The notes under the pieces: model-generated | The model's input: the letters and a program-made list of their open reading frames with translations, nothing else | Told to the model about the DNA's origin: nothing | The model's database searches: none | Made by a program: the position numbers and the translations under genes | In this document: positions 5,986 to 50,587 of the stretch, piece by piece | Layout of the letters: every line of letters begins with the position of its first letter | Numbering within the stretch: position 1 is the stretch's first letter | Assembly (NCBI GenBank): GCA_025351485.1 | Contig: JANXVU010000164.1 | Coordinates: 1 to 64,000, forward strand | Reading direction: 5' to 3' | Length of the DNA: 64,000 bases | DNA from: Candidatus Eiseniibacteriota bacterium | GTDB lineage: Bacteria > Eisenbacteria > RBG-16-71-46 > JACRLI01

Positions 5986-6112
5986 GAGGTGTCGTCCTTC
6001 GAGAGGTCCTGGTGCGATTCGACCGGCAAGCGCGGGGCACGGGATCGCCGCGCCCCTTCCCTTGGGAATCGGCGCGGAGAGCGGCCATCTTTATGGGCTT
6101 AACGGTCCGATG

Positions 6113-6439
6113 TCATTTGGCAGGGCGCGTTTGGGCGCGGGCCTCCGCGGCGATCGGAGCGGGCTCGGGAACCATGACCACCGAGTTCTCGCTCCCCCAG
6201 GGGTTCGGCACGTATTTCGGCGCATCGTAGTCGTTATACCAGATCCGGCCCACCTTGAACTTGTACTCGTATTCGCCCGGGGCGATCTTCAGCTCCAGCG
6301 CGTGGCCGTGGTCGCCCACGCGTATCATCGGATGGGACAATTCGTTCCAGTCGTTGAAATCGCCCACCAGGAAGACGTCTTGATCGGTGGGGCGCACGAA
6401 GGTGAACCGGACGCGGCCGTTGGGCAGGATCTCGACCAT
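6113..6439 (-). CDS. Stand-alone CBM48-like glycogen-binding domain protein
   Basis: 108-aa protein that is almost entirely a CBM48 (isoamylase N-terminal/AMPK glycogen-binding) domain: VRFTFVRP, VFLVGDFNDW, then LELKIAPGEYEYKFKV and a C-terminal NPWGSENS. The conserved Trp in FNDW and the YEYKF strand are the usual glycan-binding features. I chose the ATG at 6439 because GAGG sits six bases upstream; the frame could extend to 6520 but that segment does not look like protein. No enzyme domain is attached. It may target the co-directional GH15 enzyme, or another partner, to alpha-glucan. That partnership is inferred from position. Confidence 0.75.
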   Translation of the reverse strand: MVEILPNGRVRFTFVRPTDQDVFLVGDFNDWNELSHPMIRVGDHGHALELKIAPGEYEYKFKVGRIWYNDYDAPKYVPNPWGSENSVVMVPEPAPIAAEARAQTRPAK

Positions 6440-6715
6440 GGGAAGCCTCAGGATTCGGGGGCAGGGCTGCATGAGACAAGGCAATATTGGCTCCCGGGGG
6501 GCCGGGGCGTCAAGGAGCAAACAGGCCCCGGAGCGCCCCTTTGGCGGCCGGGTCGGGGACCGAAAATTCCTATGCTAGACTCCGGGCAGGAGCGTGCCGT
6601 TAATAAGTGTGGCGGAGCGCCGGGGCTTCCCGCGCTGCCCCGGATTTTGTCCCAGCCACACATGCCCCGCGGTCGCCCCATGCGCCGCGCCGCTTTCCTG
6701 TTTCCCGGAGGTCGC

Positions 6716-7735
6716 TTGAGCCGGTTTCGCCTTTCAGGCTGCATCGCCGTGGTTGTCGCGCTCGCCCTTTCGGGCTGCGGTTTTGGCATCACCGGAACCA
6801 ACGGGGGTGGCGGCAACGGCAAGGGCGGCTGGGTCCAGCAGACCACGCCCACCCTCAACGACCTGCTCGCGGTGTCCTTCGCCGACACGCTTCACGGCTG
6901 GGCCGTGGGCGCGATCACCCTCCTGCACACCAGCGACGGCGGAAAGACCTGGATCAACCAGGTGGGCCAGGTCGGCGCGCTCACCCAGTGGAACGGCGCC
7001 AGCGCCACCGATTCGTCGCACTGCTGGATCGTGGGCGGGGACGGGTTCGTGCGCTGGACCGAGAACGGCGGCACCAGCTGGAGCGCGGTGCAGCCCAGCC
7101 CCTCCGGCAGCGCCACTTTCAACGCGGTCCAGTTCCTGGACCACCTGCGCGGCTGGGTATGCGGCCGGAAGAGCAACGGCGTGGGCGTGATCCTGTACAC
7201 CATCAACGGCGGGCTCTCGTGGTCCGAGGGCAACTACACCGGCTTGAAGGAAGTGCAGGCCATCAGCTTCACCACTCCCAGCACCGGCGTGGCCTGCGGC
7301 GTGCTGGGGCAGATCTACTACACCAGCGACGGCGGCCGCACCTGGACGGCGGGCACTTCTCCCACCACCCAGGCGCTCTTCGCCATCGCTTCGGCGCCGG
7401 CGTCCGCCGGGCAGTTCGGCCTCGCCGGCGGCATCGCGGGCGTGGGCGCGGCACTGGTCACCAGCGACGCGGGTCGCACCTGGACCCGGGGCCAGCCGCT
7501 TCCCCTGGGCATGGACGTGCGTGGCGCCTCCATGGTGGACTTCAATTCCGCCTTCATCGCCGGCTGGAGCAGCCGCGCGGAGATCGCCGCCAGCATCGAC
7601 GGCGGCCGCACCTGGATCTCCCAGTCGCCCACCTGGTCGCATCCGCTCAACGCCATCGACATGGTGGACGCCCGGCACGGCTGGGTTGTGGGCGACCTGG
7701 GCGCCATCTTCACCACCCGCACCGGCGGCAACTGA
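6716..7735 (+). CDS. YCF48/BNR-type beta-propeller lipoprotein
   Basis: 339 aa from the TTG at 6716, which follows GGAGG (6707-6711) and gives a compact lipoprotein signal ending in ALSGC. In-frame ATGs at 6662 and 6680 are alternatives but place a long, poor N-region ahead of the hydrophobic core. After a Gly/Asn linker there are about six repeats with TSDGGKTW- or DGGRTW-type Asp-boxes and LHGWAVG-type strands, matching the YCF48/photosystem II assembly-factor-like propeller also found in BNR glycosidase-like proteins. No catalytic residues of sialidases are evident. Probably an envelope-anchored binding or assembly protein of unknown partner. Confidence 0.75.
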   Translation: MSRFRLSGCIAVVVALALSGCGFGITGTNGGGGNGKGGWVQQTTPTLNDLLAVSFADTLHGWAVGAITLLHTSDGGKTWINQVGQVGALTQWNGASATDSSHCWIVGGDGFVRWTENGGTSWSAVQPSPSGSATFNAVQFLDHLRGWVCGRKSNGVGVILYTINGGLSWSEGNYTGLKEVQAISFTTPSTGVACGVLGQIYYTSDGGRTWTAGTSPTTQALFAIASAPASAGQFGLAGGIAGVGAALVTSDAGRTWTRGQPLPLGMDVRGASMVDFNSAFIAGWSSRAEIAASIDGGRTWISQSPTWSHPLNAIDMVDARHGWVVGDLGAIFTTRTGGN

Positions 7736-46278: not shown

Positions 46279-46986
46279 CTACCGCTTTACGTTCCGCGCG
46301 ATCGCCAGTCCCGCCAGGCCCAGCGCCATGAAGCCAAGGGTGCGCGGCTCGGGCACCGGGCCCGCCGTGCCTTCGAGGGAAAAAGCCCCGTTGAACGGGC
46401 CCTGGTGGGTGATGTCCGTGCCCACCCGCAGCCAGTCCGGGGAAAGCGCTTCGTTGCGGATCCAGGTCTGCAGGTCGGGAACGAACGGCGTACCGTCCGC
46501 GCCGATCGGCTTGGGCGCCGACAGCCAGTAGAATTCGCCGTTCTGGGTGTCCACTTCGACCTGCGGCACAAAGAAGTAGTGGTCTGAGTCCAGATCGAGC
46601 GGGGCGCTGAACGTGAGGTCGAATTCCACCTCGGTGCCGCGCATGGCCCCCTCGCCGCCCGTGAACTGGTTCGGGATGGGGTTGATTCCGTTCAGCACGC
46701 TGTTGTTCGTGGTGAAGAGCGAGGCCAGGGTCTTGGTCGAGAAAGTCATGTTCGCGTCTGCGGACTGGCGAGAGGCAAAGACCACGTCCGAGGGCGAGTT
46801 CACTCGGGTCGGCACGTTTCCCGTGGGCGGGTTGTTCGAGTCCCCGGGGAACACCCGGTAGATCTCGACTCCCACGTTGAGGATGTCGGAGACGGTCGCG
46901 TTTCCGGAGAGAATCCCGGTGAAGGTCGCGTGCTGGATGCTGGTGGAACTCGTCAGGACGAAGTCGTCCGCGGCTTCGATCTCCAT
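46279..46986 (-). CDS. PEP-CTERM sorting-domain protein, signal peptide out of frame
   Basis: 235 aa from ATG 46986. The C-terminus is a clear PEP-CTERM signal: VPEPRTLGFMALGLAGLAI, then a short basic tail ARNVKR. This signal is processed by an exosortase, which is not in this window. The rest is a beta-rich domain with many Asn/Thr. The ORF as it stands begins directly at MEIEAADDF, with no signal peptide, although PEP-CTERM proteins must be exported. A good signal peptide with its own ribosome binding site exists just upstream in another frame (see 46987-47069). Probably a frameshifted gene, or a base-call error. Confidence 0.7.
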   Translation of the reverse strand: MEIEAADDFVLTSSTSIQHATFTGILSGNATVSDILNVGVEIYRVFPGDSNNPPTGNVPTRVNSPSDVVFASRQSADANMTFSTKTLASLFTTNNSVLNGINPIPNQFTGGEGAMRGTEVEFDLTFSAPLDLDSDHYFFVPQVEVDTQNGEFYWLSAPKPIGADGTPFVPDLQTWIRNEALSPDWLRVGTDITHQGPFNGAFSLEGTAGPVPEPRTLGFMALGLAGLAIARNVKR

Positions 46987-47069: not shown

Positions 47070-47252
47070 GGGAGCCCTCCTGGGTGCGGATGGATGTGGC
47101 CGATCGCCGTGCCCGTCCGCAGTCGCCCCGGTGGCGGCCGCTTGGGTGGCAGTGGACTCAGGAATGCTTTGTGAATTATACGCCCGCGGATCGCCCTGTC
47201 AACGCGCGGGGCAAGGCGCCAAAAATTTCCTGCCCATCCGTTCACTTTTTTC

Positions 47253-47281
47253 TTGCCTACTGCACGCCTGTGCAGTAGGCT
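47253..47281 (+). promoter_or_regulatory. lexA promoter with embedded LexA operator
   Basis: TTGCCT (47253-47258), 17-nt spacer, TAGGCT (47276-47281). The spacer is filled by a perfect palindrome with 11-base arms (47255-47265 and 47270-47280) around GCCT. Its core TGCACGCCTGTGCA matches TGCNC-N4-GTGCA, the LexA box I recall for Fibrobacter succinogenes. A repressor bound here would block RNA polymerase, as expected for autoregulated lexA. A leader of about 90 bases follows. The rest of the 47070-47377 gap shows no gene. Confidence 0.82.
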
Positions 47282-47377: not shown

Positions 47378-48007
47378 ATGCTCACAGATCGGGAAAAGGA
47401 AATCCTGGGTCTCATCACCCGGCTTACGGAAGAGCGCGGTTTTCCGCCCACCCTGCGTGAAATCGGAGAGGCCGCGGGGATCAGTTCCACCAACGGCGTC
47501 CGCTACTTCCTGGACCGGCTGGAGGCCAAGGGACGGATCCGGCGGGGCGACGGGCTTTCTCGGGCGATCGAGCTCATCGATGGGCCGGCGCGGCCATCGG
47601 CCACCATCCGGCTGCCCGAGCCCGTGGCCGTGCCCCTGATCGGGCGGGTCGCGGCGGGTTACCCGGTGCTCTCGGATGAAAACATCGAAGAGCACATCAT
47701 GGTGGATCCGAGCCTGGCCACCCCGGGGCGCACATTCGCCCTGCGGGTGCGCGGTGAAAGCATGAAAGACGCCGGCATCCTCGAGGGCGACATGGTGGTG
47801 GTGCGGGAGCAGAAAGAGGCCCGCTCGGGAGAGATCGTGGTGGCCATCGTCAACGGCGAAGCCACGGTCAAGACCTACCGGGTCAAGCGCAACGGCTCCG
47901 TGATCCTGGAGCCGGCCAACCCGGACTTCGAGCCCATCGAGATTTCCGAAGAGGCGCCGCTGGAAATCCGGGGCAAGGTGATTGCGGTGCTGCGAAAGGT
48001 GGGGTGA
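47378..48007 (+). CDS. lexA: SOS repressor LexA
   Basis: 209 aa. An N-terminal winged helix (about 1-65) with LREIGEAAGISSTNGVRYFLDRLEAKG binds the operator. The C-terminal S24 domain has the self-cleavage site Ala93-Gly94 (VAAGYP), nucleophile Ser128 in RGESMKDAGI and Lys165 in EATVKTYR. RecA-ssDNA filaments trigger cleavage and derepress the SOS genes. GAGG precedes the ATG. The upstream palindrome indicates autoregulation, and the same core occurs at 48459. The VOC-protein gene overlaps its stop codon. Confidence 0.96.
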   Translation: MLTDREKEILGLITRLTEERGFPPTLREIGEAAGISSTNGVRYFLDRLEAKGRIRRGDGLSRAIELIDGPARPSATIRLPEPVAVPLIGRVAAGYPVLSDENIEEHIMVDPSLATPGRTFALRVRGESMKDAGILEGDMVVVREQKEARSGEIVVAIVNGEATVKTYRVKRNGSVILEPANPDFEPIEISEEAPLEIRGKVIAVLRKVG

Positions 48008-48372
48008 TGAGCCAGTCCGAACATGACCAGCGAGTGGATTACGTGGAGTTTCCGGCCACGGACATCCCTGCCACCAAGCGCTTCTACAACGCCGTGTTCG
48101 GCTGGAAGTTCGACGACTATGGCCCCGATTACATCGGCTTTCACGACGGGCGCCTGGGGGGCGGGTTCTACAAGGCGCCGCATGCCGGCCCGGGCGGGGC
48201 GCTGGTGGTGATCTACGCCGCAGACATGGAGGCGACCCAGGCGCGCGTGGTTCAGGCGGGCGGCAAGATCCTGCGCCCGACGTTTGATTTTCCAGGCGGC
48301 CGCAGGTTTCATTTTTCAGACCCGAGCGGAAACGAGCTCTCTGTCTGGTCGGAGCAGGTCGGTCACAGTTAG
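48007..48372 (+). CDS. VOC/glyoxalase-superfamily protein
   Basis: 121 aa from the ATG at 48007, which shares its A with the lexA TGA; a GTG directly ahead (48004) is an alternative. One vicinal-oxygen-chelate module pair is visible: VDYVEFPATDIPATKRFYNAVFGWKF at the start and RRFHFSDPSGNELSVWS at the end, with the GLGGGF-like middle. Proteins of this sort are small bleomycin-resistance/glyoxalase-like enzymes or binding proteins; the ligand is unknown. Because it overlaps lexA it is probably co-transcribed and thus under LexA control. Confidence 0.82.
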   Translation: MSQSEHDQRVDYVEFPATDIPATKRFYNAVFGWKFDDYGPDYIGFHDGRLGGGFYKAPHAGPGGALVVIYAADMEATQARVVQAGGKILRPTFDFPGGRRFHFSDPSGNELSVWSEQVGHS

Positions 48373-48458: not shown

Positions 48459-48472
48459 TGCACATATGTGCA
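48459..48472 (+). promoter_or_regulatory. Second LexA operator
   Basis: TGCACATATGTGCA, a perfect 14-bp palindrome fitting TGCAC-N4-GTGCA, the same core as at lexA. It abuts the AAGGAG ribosome binding site (48472-48477) and lies 12 bases before the ATG of the TnpA-like gene. A weak promoter (TTCGTG at 48442, TATGTG at 48465, 17-nt spacer) would have its -10 inside the palindrome. Confidence 0.78.
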
Positions 48473-48484
48473 AGGAGTTCCAAT

Positions 48485-48841
48485 ATGTCCGCTCCTATGA
48501 GTCATGAGATCGCCACCGAAGCCGGCAGCCGATCCCTGGGACCGATCCCCCTGGATCGACTGCACCTGGTCGCCCTCGAGCCGGTGGGACACAAGCCGGT
48601 GCTGAGCGGCGACGTGGCCGCGGAACTCACCCGCGCGTTCATGGAAATCGCCGCGCACTCCGGGTACCGGGTCATGTCGGTCTCCATCCTTCCGGATCAC
48701 GTGAACCTGGTCGTGGAGCTCGGCGGGCTGCACCGCGCGGAATCGGTCACGCGCGAGCTGCGCGGGCTTTCCAGCCTGCGCCTGATGCAGAGCTTTCCCT
48801 CGCTCCGTCTCAAGCTGCGCGCCAACCACCTCTGGATCTAG
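48485..48841 (+). CDS. IS200/IS605 TnpA-like protein without catalytic residues
   Basis: 118 aa, well placed behind AAGGAG (7-nt spacing). From residue 27 it follows the IS200-type Y1 transposase fold: HLVALEPVGHKPVLSGDVAAEL, a helix, then VMSVSILPDHVNLVVEL, ESVTRELRGLSS and LRANHLWI. In active TnpA the fourth strand carries His-hydrophobic-His; here it is H72-V-N74. TnpA also continues past HLW to a helix with the nucleophilic Tyr; this protein stops there. It therefore cannot cut DNA as TnpA does, but may still bind single-stranded or hairpin DNA. The operator at 48459 places it under LexA. Likely a domesticated transposase. Confidence 0.65.
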   Translation: MSAPMSHEIATEAGSRSLGPIPLDRLHLVALEPVGHKPVLSGDVAAELTRAFMEIAAHSGYRVMSVSILPDHVNLVVELGGLHRAESVTRELRGLSSLRLMQSFPSLRLKLRANHLWI

Positions 48842-48894
48842 CCCGCCCGCGCGCGGCACTCGAAACATCCAATGGAAATGGGCGGGAGACGGAG

Positions 48895-49149
48895 ATGATC
48901 CAGGCTGTCCACGAGCCCATCGAAGTCATCACGGTTTTCTCCGAAGGCCATGCCCGGCCGCTGCGCTTCAAGTGGCGCAAGCGCGTGGTCAAGGTCGCCA
49001 AGGTGACCGGCGAATGGGTTCGCAACGAAGGAGATTCGCGGGTCCACTACTACTCGGTGCTCGGTGAAACCTCGGACTACTTCGAGATCGCCTACGACGC
49101 CCGCAAGGTGCTGTGGACCCTGATGAAAGTCTGGCTGGATGGAGCGTGA
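48895..49149 (+). CDS. DUF6504-like small protein linked to Y-family polymerase
   Basis: 84 aa; GGAGACGGAG lies just before the ATG. The sequence (IEVITVFSEGHARPLRFKWRKRVVKV, a charged middle, YFEIAYDARKVLWTLMKVWLDG) resembles DUF6504, small proteins usually found beside Y-family polymerase or ImuB-type genes. The call rests on the F-x-W pattern and context, so it is moderate. Basic strands and several Trp residues would suit a DNA- or polymerase-binding accessory. It lies 53 bp after the TnpA-like gene and 154 bp before dinB, probably in one LexA-controlled unit. Confidence 0.55.
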   Translation: MIQAVHEPIEVITVFSEGHARPLRFKWRKRVVKVAKVTGEWVRNEGDSRVHYYSVLGETSDYFEIAYDARKVLWTLMKVWLDGA

Positions 49150-49303
49150 GGATGGGATCGAGGGGAGCCACGGCGGAAGTCCCGCCGCCTTATTTCACAC
49201 CTCACGTTTCCGTCTGAGCCAGTTTCGGGATTGAAGCCCCGGCGCGGACCGCTTCTGCGCCACGCGCCACCTCCCGCGCCGGGGCCAACTCGTGGGGAGG
49301 ATC

Positions 49304-50587
49304 ATGGGGTTCTCGCCCTCCCGGGGAGAGGCGCGCCATGGGAAGGAGCCGGGCGCGACCCGGATCATATTCCACGTGGACATGGACGCATTCTTCGCCT
49401 CGGTGGAGCAATTGTTCAACCCGCACCTGCGCGGGAAACCGGTGCTGGTATGCGGCGATCCGGACGGACGCAGCGTGGTGGCGACCGCCTCGTACGAGGC
49501 GCGCCCCTACGGCATCCGCTGCGGCATGCCGGTGCGGGAGGCGCGGCGCCTGTGCCCCCACGCCACGTGCGTGGAAGGAGATCCGGGCAAGTACATCCAC
49601 ATCTCGCTGCAGGTGTTGGACCTGCTCAAGACGTTCAGCCCTTCGGTGGAGCCGTTTAGCATCGACGAGGCGTTCGTGGAAGTCACCGAACAGATCGAGA
49701 AGCGCAGCGAGATGCTGAATCTGGCCAATCGGATCCAGCGCCGGGTGCGGGCCACCGTGGGGGTGACCGCTTCCATCGGGATCGGACCCAACAAGTTCGT
49801 GGCCAAGATGGCCTCCGGGGTGCACAAGCCCGAGGGCATGACCTGCTTTTCCACCGCGGACTTCGTCCGGCACTTTGGGCCGCAGCCGGTCGGGGAACTG
49901 TGGGGGATTGGAAAAGCCACCTCCGAAATCCTGGGATCCCTGGGGCTTCGAACGGTGAATCAACTGGCTGCGGCGCCCCGGGAACTTCTGGCGGGAACCT
50001 TCGGTATCGTAGGACCGGGGCTTAAGCTGGTCGCCCAGGGGTTGGACGAGACCCCGGTGGTTCCGTATCACCAGGCGCCGGATGCCAAGTCCATCGGGCA
50101 CGAACACACGCTGGAACAGGACGAGTCCGATCCCGAGATCCTCGCCGGGCACATGCTGCGCCTCAGCGACATGGTCGCGCGGCGGGCGCGGCTGGACAGC
50201 TTCGCCGGCAAGGTGATCTCGCTCAAGCTCCGGAGCTCGGATTTCCAGACCTTCCAGGCACAGCAGGGGCTGGGGCATCCCACCAGCGATGGCCTGGAGA
50301 TCTACCGGGTGGCCCGGAGCCTGTTCGAGCGACTTAAAGATGGCCCCGCGGGAGATTTCCACCGGGGCCGTGTGCAAAAGAGGAAAACTGCCGCTGGACC
50401 GATTCGGGCGTTCCGGCTTCTTGGGATATCCCTGGGGGGACTGGTCCGCCTCGCGCCCGATCCGCAGCGGCTCTTATTTCCGGAAGAGCAGCGCTATCGC
50501 GATATGATGTCCGCAGTGGACCGCCTTCGCGGACGCCTAGGCGAGGGGATCCTCGTGCGGGCCGGCACCATGATTCTCGAACACTGA
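49304..50587 (+). CDS. dinB: DNA polymerase IV (Y family)
   Basis: 427 aa from ATG 49304 (GGAGG close by; GTG 49292 is an alternative). Palm catalytic residues: D26 in FHVDMDAFFASVEQ and D121-E122 in SIDEAFVE. The steric-gate stretch DAFF, the YEARPYGIRCGMP finger motif and the helix-hairpin-helix ELWGIGKATSEIL are present, followed by a little-finger domain with GHEHTLEQDESD. It performs translesion synthesis on damaged templates. The C-terminal tail (about 350-427) is longer than in E. coli and has no obvious beta-clamp motif. Upstream TnpA-like and DUF6504-like genes and the LexA operator make SOS control likely. Confidence 0.93.
   Translation: MGFSPSRGEARHGKEPGATRIIFHVDMDAFFASVEQLFNPHLRGKPVLVCGDPDGRSVVATASYEARPYGIRCGMPVREARRLCPHATCVEGDPGKYIHISLQVLDLLKTFSPSVEPFSIDEAFVEVTEQIEKRSEMLNLANRIQRRVRATVGVTASIGIGPNKFVAKMASGVHKPEGMTCFSTADFVRHFGPQPVGELWGIGKATSEILGSLGLRTVNQLAAAPRELLAGTFGIVGPGLKLVAQGLDETPVVPYHQAPDAKSIGHEHTLEQDESDPEILAGHMLRLSDMVARRARLDSFAGKVISLKLRSSDFQTFQAQQGLGHPTSDGLEIYRVARSLFERLKDGPAGDFHRGRVQKRKTAAGPIRAFRLLGISLGGLVRLAPDPQRLLFPEEQRYRDMMSAVDRLRGRLGEGILVRAGTMILEH

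Follow-up and report, generated by a model that had tools for sequence, protein, structure and literature searches.

Since the catalytic tyrosine has been lost and the gene is present as a single copy, adjoins lexA and carries its own LexA-type box, a TnpA transposase without its nucleophile appears to have been adopted by its host into the SOS response. The gene, P0001, lies in the 64,000-nt stretch of Eisenbacteria DNA analysed here (the window), and we consider it probable that it encodes a TnpA of the IS200/IS605 type, domesticated and passed on vertically, that is controlled by LexA and binds single-stranded or hairpin DNA. Domestication and retention as a regulated gene had been proposed in an original prediction made from the window alone, and both are supported by the results below; that prediction did not mention that the operator is of the LexA type or that the gene sits between lexA and dinB. 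The locus contains the following features (window positions):

47261-47274, no strand assigned: LexA-type box TGCACGCCTGTGCA upstream of lexA, within a palindrome with 11-bp arms (47255-47280)
47378-48007, + strand: lexA (LexA_DNA_bind, 2e-17; Peptidase_S24, 2e-33)
48004-48372, + strand: VOC/glyoxalase-superfamily protein, overlapping the end of lexA
48459-48472, no strand assigned: LexA-type operator TGCACATATGTGCA, a perfect palindrome, 12 bp before the P0001 start codon
48473-48478, + strand: Shine-Dalgarno sequence AAGGAG of P0001
48485-48841, + strand: P0001, TnpA-like protein of 118 aa that has a Y1_Tnp core, reads HVN at the HUH site and lacks the Tyr helix
48698-48706, + strand: degenerate HUH site of P0001 (codons 72-74, His-Val-Asn)
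48895-49149, + strand: DUF6504 protein (84 aa), starting 53 nt downstream of P0001 and lacking a LexA box of its own
49292-50587, + strand: dinB, DNA polymerase IV-type (IMS, 2e-48); the start may be at 49304

The P0001 frame is genuinely coding. With a GC3 of 0.85 and a synonymous-codon score of +27.9 bits, it has the composition and codon usage typical of genes in this genome, the shifted frames score -33 and -87.5 bits, and the usage is normal across both parts of the 118-codon frame; a 163-aa antisense ORF was rejected as a true gene, having a codon score of -43.5 bits. The start codon is ATG with AAGGAG ~7 nt upstream, and the adjacent palindrome TGCACATATGTGCA is a LexA-type box, in agreement with the ribosome binding site and operator that had been predicted. 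In the Pfam search, Y1_Tnp matched P0001 with E = 1.3e-9 (38.6 bits; cutoff, 23), aligning residues 35-117 to positions 15-97 of the 121 in the profile, and the NCBIfam IS200 model gave 45.2 bits, under its cutoff of 55. The protein thus follows the TnpA fold up to the HLW motif, as had been claimed, and ends with W117-I118 ahead of the catalytic-Tyr helix. The HUH position does read H72-V73-N74 and no nucleophilic Tyr is left, the sole tyrosine being Y61, distant from the position of the Tyr helix. Through 48842-48894, no frame holds any resemblance to the missing "DERY..ETVS.." part; a fresh nonsense mutation, which the original prediction had also discounted, was therefore rejected. Structure prediction, one of the checks proposed, led to the same family: models of P0001 (pLDDT 80) and of one orthologue (81.6) both had ISDra2, IS608 and other IS200 TnpA structures as their best matches (E = 5e-7 and 1.5e-10). 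P0001 alone matches Y1_Tnp in the 3.44-Mb genome, and a protein-pattern scan of a collection of genome contigs with P0001 alone returned no match.

Homologues were sought in 59 related genomes. A sister family, placed in the same Eisenbacteria order and represented by 20 genomes, has one homologue in each of 19. A Y1_Tnp match was obtained with all 19 proteins searched. When the phylum was searched with a profile, 20/21 genomes of the order had a single copy and 0/26 of the other genomes had any. When 385 genomes were searched with a profile that included the window protein, family members scored 245-271 bits, the copy of genome G014 158 bits and the window protein 130 bits, with a gap to ordinary IS200 transposases at ~75 bits or less. 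No close relatives were found in viral contigs. In the sister-family loci checked, the gene (hereafter, tnp) lies directly downstream of lexA, and no VOC/glyoxalase gene was found between the two. The G014 copy, also adjacent to lexA, is frameshifted and lacks a LexA-type box (L042, around 6001-6720), so either the gene is dispensable in that genome or the assembly is wrong; the counts given below for intact orthologues refer to the remaining 18. The orthologues share a conserved C-terminal tail, [LW]AxAS (e.g., L003:1447-1902). A C-terminal degron was considered and rejected, the tail being alike but not identical to the [LF]AA of tmRNA tags in the same genomes.

In a joint alignment, all six IS200 proteins have Tyr in the catalytic column, whereas 17 orthologues have Arg and one has Lys; the column is absent from P0001. 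Comparison with solved structures, among them 2xo6, the Y132F mutant of ISDra2 TnpA, places catalytic Y132 of ISDra2 at Arg137 of the family profile consensus and Q136 at Leu141; five residues past the old Tyr position, His142 is invariant in all 18 orthologues. Since no orthologue retains the catalytic Tyr, its loss is common to the order and probably took place in the common ancestor, not through the truncation seen in the window. The HxH motif, on the other hand, is kept in 18/18 intact orthologues, and the loss of the second His (HVH to HVN) and of the C-terminus is, as far as known, confined to the window genome. Consequently, H72-V-N74 is not a conserved signature as had been expected, only H72 being shared, and the claim that both parts of the active site are gone holds for P0001 but not for its orthologues. 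The contrary possibility, that orthologues keep HUH and Tyr and the window copy is simply truncated, is correct for the histidines and wrong for the tyrosine, which is found in 0/18. Strand-transfer chemistry without this residue is excluded by the established mechanism.

Both boxes of the window follow the pattern TGCAC-N4-GTGCA, and the operator fits TGCNC-N4-GTGCA, which we take to be the LexA box of Fibrobacter. In the sister family, TGCACNNNNGTGCA boxes precede lexA (mostly TGCACGNNTGTGCA), and a box stands ahead of the tnp start in 18/18 intact leaders (mostly TGCACATNNGTTCA); AGGAGG is invariant across the aligned tnp leaders. TGCACNNNTGTGTA occurs upstream of recA in five genomes. LexA-type boxes also precede a radical-SAM gene and DUF6504-dinB operons, often with a distance of ~30 bp to the start. 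Since the bare motif is found about as often as expected (4 found against ~3-4 per GC-rich genome, estimated from base composition), the case for these boxes rests on their conserved position and not on rarity. Sharing its box with lexA and other SOS genes, tnp would apparently belong to the LexA/SOS regulon. The boxed dinB operons, of which there are two DUF6504-like/dinB kinds (L063-L091), and the radical-SAM gene, which is Rv2578c-like (L064, L066), sketch the SOS regulon of Eisenbacteria in outline; no paper on the SOS response of Eisenbacteria was found among the open-licence papers searched.

P0001 apparently heads an operon with the DUF6504 gene and dinB, and the finding of no further box between P0001 and dinB suggests that the three form a single transcription unit. 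DUF6504-like genes ahead of dinB in the sister family carry their own LexA box. A second DUF6504-like/dinB pair lies at a contig edge. The DUF6504 protein is uncharacterised; in this order its gene accompanies dinB, and none of the open-licence papers searched names it. On the other side of lexA, a perfect sigma-70 consensus promoter (TTGACA-16-TATAAT; 47175-47202, - strand) lies upstream of a gene (46279-46986, - strand) whose C-terminus resembles a PEP-CTERM signal.

In the sister family, tnp is under purifying selection, with dN/dS of ~0.09-0.13 in the closest orthologue pairs. Across 13 loci, distances between lexA genes and between tnp genes are correlated (Mantel r = 0.73, p = 1e-4), as joint vertical descent would give. 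The window lineage, represented by one known sequence, is strongly diverged: P0001 shares 25-32% identity with the orthologues and its branch, at 8 changes per site, is very long, which may indicate relaxed constraint. Its residues coincide with the sister-family consensus at 16/39 of the invariant, 9/32 of the well-conserved and 10/46 of the variable positions.

Proteins of the TnpA structure family bind single-stranded hairpin DNA, and by analogy it is plausible that P0001 does so as well. We propose that DNA damage would lead to cleavage of LexA and to synthesis of the TnpA-like protein along with the products of lexA and recA and with Pol IV. Unable to form a 5'-phosphotyrosine bond, the protein would act by binding the single-stranded stretches or hairpins of DNA that damaged forks expose. 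The bound DNA might be protected or marked, or the protein might help to direct repair and translesion synthesis. P0001, in the window lineage, has been reduced to the core; with neither a complete metal site nor a Tyr helix remaining, it could serve only as a binding or partner protein. We find the most economical reading to be that the protein is induced by damage and binds DNA that is single-stranded or folded into hairpins. That the domesticated transposase works together with Pol IV as such a binder, and would represent a new kind of SOS effector, is a more tentative proposal, to which we give somewhat less than an even chance.

The divergence of P0001 also allows a different view of the window, in which its copy is a decaying remnant and the full-length orthologue is the functional gene. 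A rearrangement would have brought the 5' part and the LexA promoter in front of DUF6504-dinB; what is left of the frame would persist chiefly as a translated leader to the dinB operon. The truncation lies 53 nt ahead of a DUF6504 gene that is boxless here but boxed in the sister family, and HVN, the loss of many otherwise invariant residues and the long branch all fit such decay. However, all 118 codons form an intact frame whose two halves show normal codon usage, the Y1_Tnp match is still recognisable, the core fold is modelled confidently, and agreement with the sister family is greater at invariant (16/39) than at variable (10/46) positions. We regard the remnant as rather unlikely.

Two further possibilities each seem improbable to us. 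The full-length orthologues, in which HxH and His142 are both invariant (18/18) and which are under strong purifying selection, might still be nucleases, these residues holding a metal that activates water or another nucleophile, resulting in SOS-induced nicking of single-stranded DNA; yet the usual third ligand, Gln (Q136 in ISDra2), aligns with Leu of the profile, the helix is without its Tyr, and the idea is inapplicable to the window protein, which lacks both the second His and the helix. Alternatively, the protein might recognise a hairpin between lexA and tnp, as TnpA does the ends of its IS, and regulate its own expression or that of lexA. This hairpin (CGGGAG-loop-CTCCCG-TTTT, with the stem leading into a T run) is conserved (L028-L042; e.g., L032:5925-5944) with loops that vary. 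The strict pattern matches five genomes, at this locus only in each, and the hairpin is retained with other stem pairs in further genomes; that TnpA proteins bind hairpins is also in its favor. A general terminator family was rejected, the strict pattern being absent elsewhere in the genomes where it matches, but the hairpin still resembles a normal intrinsic terminator of lexA, and the window has no comparable hairpin (z = -0.68).

The domesticated TnpA that we favor shares with IS200/IS605 TnpA proteins (ISDra2, IS608) its fold and its best sequence and structure matches, and its orthologues share the HxH position. It differs from them in that no family member has the catalytic Tyr, P0001 also lacking the second His and the Tyr helix, and in that the family gene is single-copy, occupies a constant position beside lexA and carries a LexA-type box. 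No tnpB was seen beside the family gene and no end repeats or REP-like inverted repeats were found around the window gene. With a single copy, a fixed locus and no end repeats, a mobile element was rejected. ISDra2 activity is likewise tied to DNA damage, there through single-stranded DNA: its TnpA uses only single-stranded DNA as substrate, and transposition is triggered by irradiation (PMC2806898). The REP-associated tyrosine transposases (TnpAREP, or RAYTs) are likewise domesticated relatives of TnpA; they retain HUH together with Y---NP, and flanking REP sequences occur in several of their subclasses (PMC6006769). In our orthologues, by contrast, the Tyr is replaced, and the RAYT model scored 19.1 bits with P0001 and 42.8 bits with one orthologue, under its cutoff of 80. 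In ISCR, a mobile element, the HUH transposase is of a different type. The promoter of its transposase is LexA-controlled (PMC13393415), so that LexA control of a transposase gene is common to both systems, but the gene described here is immobile and its protein nucleophile-less.

A conserved, Tyr-less Y1_Tnp family linked to lexA was not found in the open-licence papers searched. In a census of TnpA-Y1 proteins, those without HUH, Tyr or a complete core were held to be probably non-functional, 722/924 being kept, and all functional classes were described with HUH and Tyr (PMC6006769). The Tyr-less family, with its one copy in almost all genomes of the order, under purifying selection and apparently under LexA control, argues against this as a general rule, and suggests that the DNA recognition of a transposase, without its chemistry, could join the DNA-damage response.
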